A DNA stretch of 64,000 nt from an uncultured Pseudomonadota bacterium (GTDB lineage Bacteria; Pseudomonadota; Gammaproteobacteria; Methylococcales; Methylomonadaceae), in NCBI GenBank assembly GCA_903834465.1, contig CAILJB010000008.1:1-64000 (forward strand). Direction: 5' to 3'. Positions 21,383 through 27,139 of this stretch are shown here, one piece after another. Position 1 is the stretch's first letter. Each line of letters starts with the position of its first letter. A program made the translations under genes and the position numbers. Under the pieces are notes generated by a model that had not been told where the DNA came from, searched no databases, and worked only from the letters and a program-made list of their open reading frames with translations.

Positions 21383-21445
21383 GTTAGCCTCGCATAAATT
21401 AGCGTAACAATTAACTATAACTATAACTTTTTTGGAGTGTACATC

Positions 21446-22087
21446 ATGGCAAAACCATTGATTCAAATGGCATTAGATTCATTAGATTTCGACGCAACAA
21501 TTTCATTGGCAAAACAAGTTGCGCCATTCGTTGATATTTTCGAAATTGGCACACCTTGCATTAAACACAACGGTATCAACTTAGTTAAAGCGTTGCGTGC
21601 AGAATTCCCTGACAAATTATTGTTAGTTGACTTGAAAACAATGGACGCTGGCGAATACGAAGCGACTCCTTTCTACGCAGCTGGCGCAGACATCGTGACT
21701 GTTTTAGGTGTTTCTGGTTTAGCGACAATCAAAGGTGTTATTAAAGCAGCTAATGCTAACGCCGCTGAAACTCAAATCGACTTAATCAATGTTGACGACA
21801 AAGCAGCTTGCGCGCGCGCATCAGTTGCAGCAGGCGCACAAATTTTAGGTATTCACACAGGTTTGGACGCACAAGCAGCGGGTCACACACCGTTTGCTGA
21901 TTTAAACGAAATTGCTGGTTTAGGTTTAGGCGCACGCATTTCAGTTGCTGGCGGTATCAATGCTAAAACTGTTCAAGACGTAGTTCGTGCAGGCGCAAGC
22001 ATTATCGTTGTTGGCGCAGCAATCTACGGTGCCGCTTCACCTGCTGAATCAGCGCGTGAAATTCGTGAATTAGTTGACGCTGTTTAA
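21446..22087 (+). CDS. hxlA: 3-hexulose-6-phosphate synthase (Hps)
   Basis: Condenses formaldehyde with ribulose 5-phosphate, the entry step of the RuMP cycle. The protein is 213 residues, an OMP-decarboxylase-superfamily barrel: MALDSLDF at the first strand, FEIGTPCIKHNG, LLVDLKTMDAGEYEA with the Mg-binding and catalytic D-x-K-x-x-D, GIHTGLDAQ, and SVAGGINAKT at the phosphate site. ATG 21446 is preferred to GTG 21437, which lies in the GGAG ribosome site. Regular codon choice and a strong ribosome site suggest high expression. Followed 12 bases later by the isomerase gene. Confidence 0.96.
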   Translation: MAKPLIQMALDSLDFDATISLAKQVAPFVDIFEIGTPCIKHNGINLVKALRAEFPDKLLLVDLKTMDAGEYEATPFYAAGADIVTVLGVSGLATIKGVIKAANANAAETQIDLINVDDKAACARASVAAGAQILGIHTGLDAQAAGHTPFADLNEIAGLGLGARISVAGGINAKTVQDVVRAGASIIVVGAAIYGAASPAESAREIRELVDAV

Positions 22088-22099
22088 TTAGGAAGCCTT

Positions 22100-22633
22100 A
22101 TGCACCAACAACTTATCTTAGATAAAATCACAGGTATCCTCGAAGCAACAGAGGAGTCATATGATGAAAAACTCACCGCTATGCTCGACGAAGCAGGTCG
22201 CATTTTTATTGCGGGCGCGGGTCGTTCAAAACTGGTCGGCAATTTCTTTGCGATGCGGTTGGTGCATGGTGGTTACAATGTAAATGTCGTCGGTGAGATT
22301 GTTACACCGAGTATTAAGGCTGGAGACTTACTAATTATCATTTCAGGTTCTGGTGAAACAGAACAACTCATCGCATTCACTAAAAGCGCGAAAAAAGTTG
22401 GCGCAAAAATTATGTTAATTTCGGCAAAGTCCGAATCAACGATTGGTGATATGGCAGATGGTGTGTTCCAAATCGGAAAATCTGACTTATACGGTAAAGT
22501 CGTTGGAATGCCGATGGGGACAGTTTTTGAACTGTCAACATTACTCTTTTTGGAATCAACTATTTCTCACATTATTCATGAGAAAGGTATTCCTGAAGAG
22601 ATTATGCGCGAAAGACACGCCAATTTAGAATAA
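22100..22633 (+). CDS. hxlB: 6-phospho-3-hexuloisomerase (Phi)
   Basis: Converts hexulose 6-phosphate to fructose 6-phosphate. The 177-residue protein is a single SIS sugar-isomerase domain: IFIAGAGRSKLVGNFFAMRL, LLIIISGSGET and the C-terminal helix with FELSTLLFLESTISH. It is a separate polypeptide 12 bases after hps, not the Hps-Phi fusion also known in methanotrophs. A hairpin with T-rich tail follows at 22648-22676. Confidence 0.95.
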   Translation: MHQQLILDKITGILEATEESYDEKLTAMLDEAGRIFIAGAGRSKLVGNFFAMRLVHGGYNVNVVGEIVTPSIKAGDLLIIISGSGETEQLIAFTKSAKKVGAKIMLISAKSESTIGDMADGVFQIGKSDLYGKVVGMPMGTVFELSTLLFLESTISHIIHEKGIPEEIMRERHANLE

Positions 22634-22647
22634 GAACTAATTTTTGA

Positions 22648-22768: not shown

Positions 22769-24754
22769 ATGACTTCGCGTAGAGAATTAGCGAACGCCAT
22801 ACGCGCTTTAAGCATGGACGCAGTACAAAAAGCAAATTCAGGACACCCCGGCGCGCCAATGGGTATGGCCGATATTGCCGAAGTGTTGTGGAACGACCAC
22901 TTAAAACACAATCCAACCAATCCACATTGGGCAGATCGTGATCGTTTCGTATTGTCGAATGGTCATGGTTCGATGTTAATTTATTCTTTGTTGCACCTTT
23001 CTGGCTATGATTTGCCAATGAAAGAATTGCAATCTTTCCGTCAATTGCATTCTAAATGTGCTGGTCATCCCGAATACGGCTATGCACCAGGCATTGAAAC
23101 CACTACAGGGCCGTTAGGTCAAGGTATTACCAACGGTGTTGGTTTTGCAATGGCAGAAAAATTATTAGCCGACCAATTTAACCGTCCTGGTCATGATATT
23201 GTTGATCACCATACTTATGTATTTTTAGGTGATGGCTGTTTGATGGAAGGTGTGTCTCATGAAGCCTGCGCCTTAGCGGGTACTTGGGGTTTAGGTAAAT
23301 TAGTTGCTTTCTGGGATGACAACAATATTTCTATCGATGGTCACATTGATGGTTGGTATACCGACGACACCGTAAAACGTTTTGAAGCCTATGGCTGGCA
23401 CGTTCAATCAGTTGATGGTCACGATGCAAATGCGATTAACGCCGCCATTACAGCAGCTAAAGCTGTTACTGACAAACCATCTATGATTTGCTGCAAAACC
23501 ATCATCGGTTTTGGCTCACCAAACAAAAGTGGTAGCCATGACTGTCACGGTTCTGCATTAGGTGACGCGGAAGTTGCGTTGACTCGTAAAGAATTAGGTT
23601 GGACACACGAACCATTTGTAATCCCTTCTGAAATTTATGCCGGTTGGGATGCAAAAGCGAAAGGTTCGACAGTTGAATCAGATTGGAATGCTAAATTTGA
23701 CGCTTACGCAGTTGCTTATCCTGAATTAGCGGCTGAATTTAAACGCCGTATGGCGGGTGATTTGCCTGCAAATTGGAAAGCTGTTACTGACGAATTCATT
23801 AAAGCGACGAACGAAAAAGGCGAAAATCTCGCTTCACGTCAAGCCTCACAAAAAACAATTGCTGCACTTGCACCAATTTTACCTGAGTTTTTAGGCGGTT
23901 CAGCGGATTTAACTGGTTCGAATTTGACTAGCTGTGCAAGTTTCAAACACGTTAGCGGCAAAGAACCTGGTAACTACATTTCTTACGGCGTACGCGAATT
24001 CGGTATGTACGCTATCATGAACGGTATGGCGTTGCATGGTGGTTTATTACCTTTCGGTGGCACGTTCCACATGTTCTCGGACTATGCGAAAAGCGCGTTG
24101 CGTATGGCGGCGTTGATGAAACAACGTACTATCGCTGTATTGACACACGATTCAATCGGTCAAGGCGAAGACGGTCCAACGCATCAACCTATCGAAAATA
24201 CGTCTGCGTTGCGTTACATTCCAAATATGGATGTTTGGCGACCTGCTGATGCGACTGAAACGGCTGTTGCATGGGTTGTTGCAATCGAACGCAAAACTGG
24301 ACCAAGTAGTTTGGTATTGAGTCGTCAAGGTATTCCTGCGATTGCTCATGATGACGCGCAAATTGCTGCGATGCGTCAAGGTGCGTATGTCGTTTCTGAA
24401 GCGGCTGGCACAGTGGATGTGATTTTGATTGCGACAGGTTCAGAAGTGGACTTGGCGGTAAAATCACAAGCAGAATTAGCAGCTGAAGGCATTAACGCTC
24501 GCGTTGTATCTATGCCATCAACAAACGTATTTGATCGTCAAGATCAAGCCTATAAAGACAGCGTCTTATTACCAAACGTTAAACGTGTTGCTATCGAAGC
24601 CGGTGTAACAGATTTTTGGCGTAAATACGTTGGTTTAGAAGGTAGTGTTGTCGGTATCGATACATTCGGCGAATCTGCACCGGGTGGCGTATTATTTAAA
24701 CATTTCGGTTTCACCACTGAAAATGTTGTTAAGCACGTTAAAGCGGTGCTTTAA
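22769..24754 (+). CDS. tkt: Transketolase
   Basis: Thiamine-diphosphate enzyme moving two-carbon units, here regenerating ribulose 5-phosphate for formaldehyde fixation. Its 661 residues match family length. Motifs: [15 protein letters not shown] at the N-terminus, TGPLGQG, the ThDP/Mg motif [13 protein letters not shown], and in the pyrimidine domain [14 protein letters not shown] with the catalytic His. The ribosome site AAAGGAG is strong. Its position in the hxlAB-tkt-(two repeat proteins)-tal cluster supports a RuMP role in addition to the pentose phosphate pathway. Homologue names such as tktA or tktB cannot be separated. Confidence 0.97.
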
Positions 24755-24777: not shown

Positions 24778-24805
24778 CCTCGATTAGTTTTAAAACTAAT
24801 CGAGG
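24778..24805 (+). terminator. Perfect 28-base palindrome after tkt
   Basis: A 14-base arm beginning CCTCGATTAG is mirrored exactly, centred on TTTTAAAA. The tail (ATTGTTT) is only moderately T-rich, so it may give partial termination before the repeat-protein genes. Confidence 0.6.
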
Positions 24806-24836: not shown

Positions 24837-25493
24837 GTGAAAAAAAATAATTTACTCCAAGGTGCCATCGTTGCTTTGTTAGTGGCAAGTCCATTTGCGG
24901 CGAACGCAGGCGCACAATATCCAGCCGCAGATTTTGAACCGAAAGTGCTTTATCAAGATGCGTCTGTTAAATCAACGCCAGCGGCAGCACCAGTTGTCAA
25001 AGCAGCTCCGGCTGTAGCAGCACCAGCTCCTGCACCAGTTGTTTCTGCGGACGATTCAAAATATCCAGCAGCAAACTTTGAACCTAAAGTTTTGTTCAAA
25101 GATGACAGCTACAAACCAAGCAAATCAGCTCCAGTTCCTCAATATACAAGCAGTGCTGGTGCGGTTGTCATGGAAGAAGCTGCAATTAAAAAAGCAGAAA
25201 AAGGCGATGATTCTAATTTGTTGATTTTAGGTTTGTTAGCCGCTGCAGCAGCAGGTTTTGCAGCATCAAGATGCCCTAAATTTGCGGGTGTTTTTGGCTC
25301 AAGCAGTACAGAAAATGAAGTTTCAGCTCCCAAAGAAACTGGCGTAACCCGTTATTTGAATGCGCGTGTTCCTAAAGTTTCTGGCGTAACGAAATATTTA
25401 GAACGTGCTGGTAAACCAACCAATGTTGCGCGTTATATTGCAAAACAAAACATTGCACAAAAAGCTGCTCAAAACGACGCGAATCGGGGGTAG
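24837..25493 (+). CDS. Membrane-anchored repeat protein with [GN]V.[KR]Y[LI] motifs, unknown function
   Basis: A 218-residue protein starting with GTG. It has a signal peptide (1-24, ending AANA), then an exported Ala/Pro-rich stretch carrying two copies of YPAA[DN]FEPKVL (28-38, 76-86). A hydrophobic segment follows at about 127-144 (LLILGLLAAAAAGFAAS), then a tail with three motif copies: GVTRYL (Y173), GVTKYL (Y187) and NVARYI (Y200). The apparent topology puts the motif tail in the cytoplasm. The next gene, 2 bases downstream, repeats the same motif nine times. Both lie between tkt and tal. I do not recognise the family; a tether for the soluble partner or for RuMP enzymes is a hypothesis. 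Confidence 0.6.
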   Translation: MKKNNLLQGAIVALLVASPFAANAGAQYPAADFEPKVLYQDASVKSTPAAAPVVKAAPAVAAPAPAPVVSADDSKYPAANFEPKVLFKDDSYKPSKSAPVPQYTSSAGAVVMEEAAIKKAEKGDDSNLLILGLLAAAAAGFAASRCPKFAGVFGSSSTENEVSAPKETGVTRYLNARVPKVSGVTKYLERAGKPTNVARYIAKQNIAQKAAQNDANRG

Positions 25494-25495
25494 TT

Positions 25496-26113
25496 ATGGG
25501 CTTTTTCTCAGGTCTTTTTGGCAAACGTTCGGAAGATGCTTACAGCACAACAACAAGAAATGCGATTATTTCTACTACTGATTCGACGGATGGTAGCACA
25601 GGGGTGAGTCGCTATTTAGATAATCAACCATCGACCGCATTAAGTGGCGTGGAAAAATATCTAAAAGCGCAAGAGCAAAATCGCCCTAGCAGCGTGGCAA
25701 AATATTTAGCAAGACAAGCGATTGCTGAAAAAAATAAACCTGTCGTGACGTTAACCGGTGTTGCAAAATATTTAAATAACAATAAAGACAGCGCACCAGT
25801 AGTTAGAACAGGCGTAGCGCGGTATTTGGACAATCAGGATAAAACTCCCGTTAGTGGCGTAGCGAAATATATGTTGAAAAAAGCGGTCGCTGAACGTTAT
25901 GCACCACCGCCAGCGAAAGCAAAAGTAACGCGCGTTGAAAGTTATTTGCAAAGTTTGCCTGAAACTAAAACAAGCAATGTCAGCAAATATTTAGCAAGAC
26001 AAGCCATTGCGGTTGCAACTCAAACGAAAGCTGAAGTGGTTGCTGTTGTTGAAACAATTGCTGATGATGTTGCGTTGACGGGTGTTGAAAAGTATTTGCA
26101 GAATCAGCGTTAA
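25496..26113 (+). CDS. Soluble protein with nine [GNSR]V.[KRS]Y[LM] repeats, unknown function
   Basis: A 205-residue protein with no signal peptide or membrane segment. After an amphipathic start (MGFFSGLFGKR) it is built from a short linear motif repeated nine times, with Tyr at residues 40, 55, 70, 92, 110, 125, 150, 165 and 200. Examples are GVSRYLDNQ, GVEKYLKAQ, SVAKYLARQAIAE and GVAKYLNNN; copies 3, 6 and 8 carry a longer helical extension (ARQAIA or KKAVAE). Spacers are low-complexity and 15 to 35 residues long. This resembles multivalent scaffolds that bind a partner through repeated motifs. It is coupled to the membrane-anchored relative upstream and followed by tal. Function not known to me. 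Confidence 0.6.
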   Translation: MGFFSGLFGKRSEDAYSTTTRNAIISTTDSTDGSTGVSRYLDNQPSTALSGVEKYLKAQEQNRPSSVAKYLARQAIAEKNKPVVTLTGVAKYLNNNKDSAPVVRTGVARYLDNQDKTPVSGVAKYMLKKAVAERYAPPPAKAKVTRVESYLQSLPETKTSNVSKYLARQAIAVATQTKAEVVAVVETIADDVALTGVEKYLQNQR

Positions 26114-26152: not shown

Positions 26153-27139
26153 ATGGGTCAATCTTTACTCGAACAATTAAAAGGATTCACGGTTGTCGTT
26201 GCCGACACGGGTGACATTCAAGCAATTGAAGCGTTTACACCGCGCGATGCAACAACTAATCCATCGTTAATTACAGCGGCAGCGCAAATGCCACAATACC
26301 AAAGTATCGTTGACGATACTTTGAAAGGTGCGCGTGAATCGTTAGGCGCAGCGGCTGATGCGGCACAAGTAGTAACGCTAGCGTTTGATCGTTTAGCGGT
26401 TTCATTTGGTTTGAAAATTTTGCAAATTATTCCAGGTCGCGTTTCAACAGAAGTCGATGCACGTTTGTCATTCGATACGGATGCGTCAATTGCTAAAGGT
26501 CGTGAGTTAATTGCCCAATACGAAGAAGCGGGTATTTCGCGTGAACGTGTATTGATTAAAATTGCCGCAACATGGGAAGGTATTCAAGCTGCTGCGGTTT
26601 TGGAAAAAGAAGGTATTCACTGTAATTTAACGTTATTGTTTGGTTTACACCAAGCGATTGCGTGTGCTGAAAACGGCATTACATTGATTTCGCCTTTCGT
26701 GGGTCGCATTTTGGATTGGTACAAAAAAGATACGGGGACCGATTCTTACGCACCCGCCGAAGATCCAGGTGTATTATCAGTAACTGAAATTTACAACTAC
26801 TACAAAAAATTTGGTTATAAAACCGAAGTAATGGGTGCAAGTTTCCGTAACATTGGTGAAATCACTGAATTAGCAGGTAGCGATTTATTGACAATTGCAC
26901 CATCATTGCTTGACGAATTGCAAAAAACTGAAGGCGATTTGCCACGCAAGTTGACACCTGAAAATGCAGCCGCATCATCGATTGAAAAAATCAATGTCGA
27001 TAAAGCAACATTTGATCGTATGCACGCTGAAAACCGTATGGCTACTGATAAATTAGCTGAAGGTATCGATGGTTTTGCTAAAGCTCTCGTAGTATTAGAA
27101 ACATTATTAGCAGATCGTTTGGCTGTTTTGGAAGCATAA
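26153..27139 (+). CDS. tal: Transaldolase
   Basis: Transfers a dihydroxyacetone unit in the pentose phosphate and RuMP regeneration pathways. The 328 residues fit the TalB-type subfamily: ATTNPSLI at the N-terminal strand, the Schiff-base Lys in [12 protein letters not shown] (about K132), CNLTLLF and [12 protein letters not shown]. Last gene of the RuMP cluster, 39 bases after the repeat protein, and closed by a strong bidirectional terminator. Confidence 0.97.

Follow-up and report, generated by a model that had tools for sequence, protein, structure and literature searches.

CsoS2, a bacterial multivalent repeat protein, has its gene in the same operon as the carbon-fixing enzyme that it organises. 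For EPYC1-type linkers, the FLIPPer criteria describe a largely disordered chain with repeating structured elements at a spacing of 20–120 residues, and further require that the linker binds and phase-separates its enzyme (PMC11570498). Here, we analyzed a stretch of 64,000 nucleotides from a Methylomonadaceae genome (the window), in which two adjacent genes among those for RuMP enzymes, designated P1 and P2, encode proteins that carry many copies of one short motif. The reading that we favor, if by no wide measure of confidence, is that of a pair of multivalent disordered linkers, P1 and P2, which would collect RuMP enzymes, with P1 as an inner-membrane anchor.

The pair sits in the tkt–tal interval, where the first-pass annotation had placed it. 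On the + strand, to which all window coordinates below refer, hps (21437–22087; NCBIfam TIGR03128, above cutoff) and the 6-phospho-3-hexuloisomerase gene phi (22100–22633; NCBIfam TIGR03127, above cutoff) are followed by the transketolase gene tkt (22769–24754; NCBIfam TIGR00232), P1 (24837–25493; GTG start, 218 aa), P2 (25496–26113; 205 aa), and the transaldolase gene tal (26153–27139; NCBIfam), with a gap of 2 bp between P1 and P2. In many other genera, fba follows tal. The tkt–P1 gap contains an RNA hairpin with a 12-bp perfect stem (24778–24805; z −3.6), which is kept in congeners with different stem letters, and two further terminator-like hairpins lie in the phi–tkt gap, at 22645 and 22705. 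Neither P1 nor P2 matched a Pfam or NCBIfam family above its curated cutoff, the top sub-cutoff matches being ATP_synth_reg (17.6 of 25 bits) and anchor_PA1041 (16.8 of 250 bits). A comparison of the P2 sequence with the PDB gave no significant match, and we found no published description of the pair among the open-licence papers searched.

P2 is a soluble protein with a hydrophobic N-terminus (MGFFSGLFG) and nine motif copies: GVSRYL (residue 36; 25601–25618), GVEKYL (51; 25646–25663), SVAKYL (66; 25691–25708), GVAKYL (88; 25757–25774), GVARYL (106; 25811–25828), GVAKYM (121; 25856–25873), RVESYL (146; 25931–25948), NVSKYL (161; 25976–25993), and GVEKYL (196; 26081–26098). Both this number and the spacing of 15–35 residues agree with the initial description; six of the nine fit its pattern [GN]V.[KR]YL strictly, the exceptions being SVAKYL, GVAKYM, and RVESYL. 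Such repetition is far from a chance expectation, as 20,000 shuffles yielded a mean count of 0.013 for P1 and 0.028 for P2 and never more than 2, and the looser pattern [GNS]V.[KR]Y[LMIV] occurred in no other window ORF of at least 100 aa. A scan of the loci for ORFs with exactly one motif copy (2,704 ORFs of at least 100 aa) returned a single match, itself a P2 homologue. Across the family, the consensus is [T/S]-G-V-x-[K/R]-Y-[L/I/V/M], separated by variable linkers. In a logo of 392 copies, T/S (99%), G (76%), V (100%), K/R (94%), and Y (100%) are followed by L/I/V/M; as the pattern used to collect the copies already demanded V, Y, and one of K/R/S/E/Q, the independent information in this logo lies in the preferences for T/S and G. 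The most common spacing is 20 residues, followed by 15 and 17.

The motif of P2 is under constraint. Among 12 congeneric P2 genes, pN/pS was 0.03 at the V/Y/L positions and 0.11 over all motif positions, as defined by the window copy of P2, and 0.33 in linkers and the rest of the protein. The AF2 model of P2, built from a shallow alignment, had a pLDDT of 48 and a pTM of 0.16, with short low-confidence helices starting at most motifs, and that of P1 likewise had a low-confidence pLDDT of 49. These models are compatible with a flexible chain bearing helical stickers and do not amount to proof of it. Taken together, the logo of the motif, the pN/pS values, and the disorder-like models support a multivalent-linker architecture. 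P2 and its homologues range from 59 to 544 aa and from 2 to 20 motif copies, and this variation in number around a fixed motif suits avidity better than sensing. It counts against the alternative that P1 and P2 are regulatory or assembly factors, for instance formaldehyde-responsive proteins or oligomer chaperones, instead of structural scaffolds. Their constant operon position would suit such a role, and from general chemistry a Lys/Tyr-rich motif could react with formaldehyde; however, neither protein has a recognisable sensor or chaperone domain in Pfam or NCBIfam, and we consider this explanation quite improbable.

For P1, sequence, hydropathy, and motif scans confirmed the proposed layout of a signal peptide, a single membrane helix, and three motif copies in the tail. 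The signal peptide (residues 1–24; 24837–24908) includes a hydrophobic stretch at residues 5–22 and was judged by eye to be cut after ANA, while a Kyte–Doolittle profile places the transmembrane segment at residues 126–146 (25212–25274). The tail carries GVTRYL (residue 169; 25341–25358), GVTKYL (residue 183; 25383–25400), and NVARYI (residue 196; 25422–25439), the last of which ends in YI and not YL. In addition, P1 contains two YPA[AT][DN]FEPKVL repeats that were absent from the first-pass annotation, at residues 28 (YPAADFEPKVLYQD, 24918–24959) and 76 (YPAANFEPKVLFKD, 25062–25103), both predicted to lie on the periplasmic side. Within the first repeat, Y28, P29, and P35 are invariant in 27 homologues. 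The same 27 homologues share one plan, comprising a signal peptide, one to three YPA-type repeats, a low-complexity linker, a transmembrane segment (exactly one after residue 60 in 27/27), and a motif tail that often ends in TGVEKYLR[DN]RG. Since in these homologues the transmembrane segment is flanked by negative or no net charge on its N-terminal side and by positive or no net charge on its C-terminal side, P1 is predicted to be oriented N-out/C-in.

The YPA-type repeat is also found apart from P1. Many genera encode small secreted proteins of 76–139 aa that consist only of YPA.[DN]F.PKV-type repeats (L112–L124, L135, L261), most of which end in YPAA.F.PKVIYP; in several genomes the gene adjoins an NMT1/SsuA-like ABC transporter. 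A separate protein of this kind was not found in the genus of the window. One genome (G019) encodes a secreted SRPBCC-domain protein with three C-terminal YPA repeats (L125:9315-10229; Pfam PF10604), which by eye resembles MxaD. Because the repeat thus occurs on small secreted proteins and once on an MxaD-like SRPBCC protein, a bridge across the envelope is conceivable. P1 might join periplasmic methanol oxidation to a cytoplasmic RuMP condensate organised by P2 and pass formaldehyde to Hps, a trans-envelope metabolon that we regard as unlikely; if it existed, toxic formaldehyde would reach Hps with little free diffusion. Bridging could even be the main function, with P1 coupling methanol dehydrogenase to Hps and P2 merely amplifying the effect, and P1 does have repeats on both predicted sides of the membrane. 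Yet the SRPBCC fusion is confined to one genome and its MxaD identity has no NCBIfam match, the secreted YPAA gene, where checked, adjoins the ABC transporter and not methanol-oxidation genes, and a second family has a P2-like protein without P1. Bridging as the main function is accordingly very doubtful.

We then evaluated how the pair is distributed relative to RuMP genes. Its anticipated co-occurrence with these genes held, and its operon place is kept across genera and in two families. Methylomonadaceae genera repeatedly show the order hps-phi-tkt-P1-P2-tal(-fba), G019 and G027 contain repeats of hps-phi-tkt-P2, and P1 lies near hps, tkt, or tal in G038, G040, G045, G051, G054, and G060. 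More broadly, P1 accompanies the RuMP genes in f3 and f5 and in the majority of f4 genomes, G046 being an exception in which it lies apart from them. P2 is missing from some Methylomonadaceae loci, e.g., G030, and other loci end at contig edges. Two assemblies call for comment: contig G052:C1 (L073, L075) almost duplicates G038:C285, which suggests contamination of the G052 assembly, and both P1 copies of G039 (L132) appear frame-disrupted, perhaps as a sequencing artefact.

The second family, f10, is probably Methylophagaceae, and the 16S of its member G460 is nearest to non-beta Gammaproteobacteria. Here the gene order is different (hps-P2like-tal-hps-phi, with a variant hps-phi-P2-tal-hps in G479), and a soluble P2-like protein occurs without P1. 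By a hand count from coordinates, the P2-like gene adjoins hps in 45/45 assessable genomes out of 50 with Hps, the other five having a partial Hps match or Hps at a contig end, while the seven f10 genomes without Hps have a ChpA-like match at most. Methylophagaceae are not known to have an intracytoplasmic membrane (ICM). The original proposal of a membrane-tethered scaffold close to that membrane is partly supported, as regards the RuMP tie and the multivalent architecture. The evidence does not call for the ICM, which is not the common denominator because f10, probably devoid of an ICM, has the soluble protein only.

In a sample of 369 genomes of the class, matches to the P1 model (A1) and Hps occurred in the identical six genomes, which represent two lineages and include two (G000 and G027) that fed sequences into the model; none of the 363 Hps-less genomes had an A1 match. 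In a phylum sample of 399 genomes, A1 matched in G000 only. Across these 369 class and 399 phylum genomes, the pair was not widespread without RuMP genes, nor did an established family function emerge for it. The pair is missing, although RuMP genes or hps are present, from f6 genomes, G057, and G820, the last of which has two hps genes (65–66% identity) and no motif protein near them. With several hps-bearing lineages lacking it, the pair is a RuMP accessory and not a universal component of the pathway. As an accessory, it is linked to hps, phi, tkt, or tal across lineages, although the independent lineages number two and common operon ancestry inflates the linkage counts, and within the class sample it is absent where RuMP is absent. 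Overall, a functional tie of the pair to RuMP is strongly supported.

The P1-like proteins of f6 keep the YPA repeats and lack the GV.KYL motif, as does a YPAA protein in G044, which has no Hps. In f6 (L126, L128–L130, L133), an acidic tail and a basic C-terminus of the KANKTKR/RANKTKR type replace the motif, and the RuMP genes lie elsewhere than the P1-like genes. Separately, a comparison of Hps sequences gave no clear docking surface specific to motif-bearing lineages, yielding only five weak positions that are confounded by phylogeny.

The main complication is that the motif also occurs in a ChpA-like kinase of f10 and in proteins encoded away from RuMP loci. These raise the alternative that the motif binds a general polar, envelope, or chemosensory hub, such that the RuMP operon hosts just one of its users and P1 and P2 would serve to localise something to the membrane or pole. 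Three f10 loci that were read encode ChpA-like hybrid kinases of 1,905–2,035 aa with 4–6 or more motif copies (L109:5745-11852, L257:5672-11581, L258:5742-11459), and in many f10 genomes long ORFs of this kind were hit by the family search. Further motif proteins, outside RuMP loci, lie at L136:9527, L061:9442-10272, and L072:9755-10528; in the latter two, the repeats are fused to a Cys-containing C-terminal domain without a Pfam match. Because of these proteins, the receptor of the motif may not be a RuMP enzyme, and a shared hub receptor would account for the motif copies in the ChpA-like kinase no less well than a RuMP enzyme would. However, a general hub does not readily fit the linkage to RuMP operons in two families whose gene orders differ or the lack of A1 matches in the Hps-less class genomes, and no long-ORF ChpA is among the Methylococcales matches listed. 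We thus consider a general hub rather unlikely.

Returning to the favored reading of P1 and P2 as linkers that collect RuMP enzymes, each motif copy, together with a few following residues, would form a short helix with T/S as N-cap. This helix may dock on one conserved site, for which Hps or another operon enzyme would be the simplest partner, and many copies on one flexible chain could then, by cross-linking, hold oligomeric enzymes together in a cluster or condensate. The motif copies of P1, on the predicted cytoplasmic face of the inner membrane, would tether this cluster there, while its periplasmic YPA.[DN]F.PKV repeats could hold a second partner, possibly the methanol-oxidation machinery. 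Formaldehyde capture would thereby be placed opposite formaldehyde release.

An open question in methanotrophs and methylotrophs is how the cells manage high fluxes of cytotoxic formaldehyde. If confirmed, a dedicated scaffold that the assimilation operon itself encodes, and whose docking motif can be tested, would provide a direct handle on this question and be of interest to synthetic methylotrophy. With CsoS2 of alpha-carboxysomes, P1 and P2 share the nature of multivalent repeat proteins encoded in a carbon-assimilation enzyme operon. They are set apart from it by gene context and motif, the P1/P2 set having one short motif class only. No carboxysome shell or Rubisco genes were recognised in the window operon or the conserved neighbourhood (hps, phi, tkt, tal, fba), and we did not class the pair as CsoS2 because the operon genes are those of RuMP enzymes. 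Unlike EPYC1, P1 and P2 are bacterial, belong to another pathway, use another motif, include a membrane-anchored partner, and have a putative linker role. Their motif spacing in the window (15–35 residues, mostly 15–22) is shorter than that of EPYC1 and falls at the low edge of the EPYC1-type range of 20–120 (PMC11570498). Judged against the same criteria, they resemble EPYC1 and the pyrenoid Rubisco linkers in their predicted disordered chain, their short near-regular repeats, and their tie to a carbon-fixation enzyme (PMC11570498), and, if they do act as scaffolds, they would constitute a bacterial counterpart of the Rubisco linkers in another carbon-fixation pathway.
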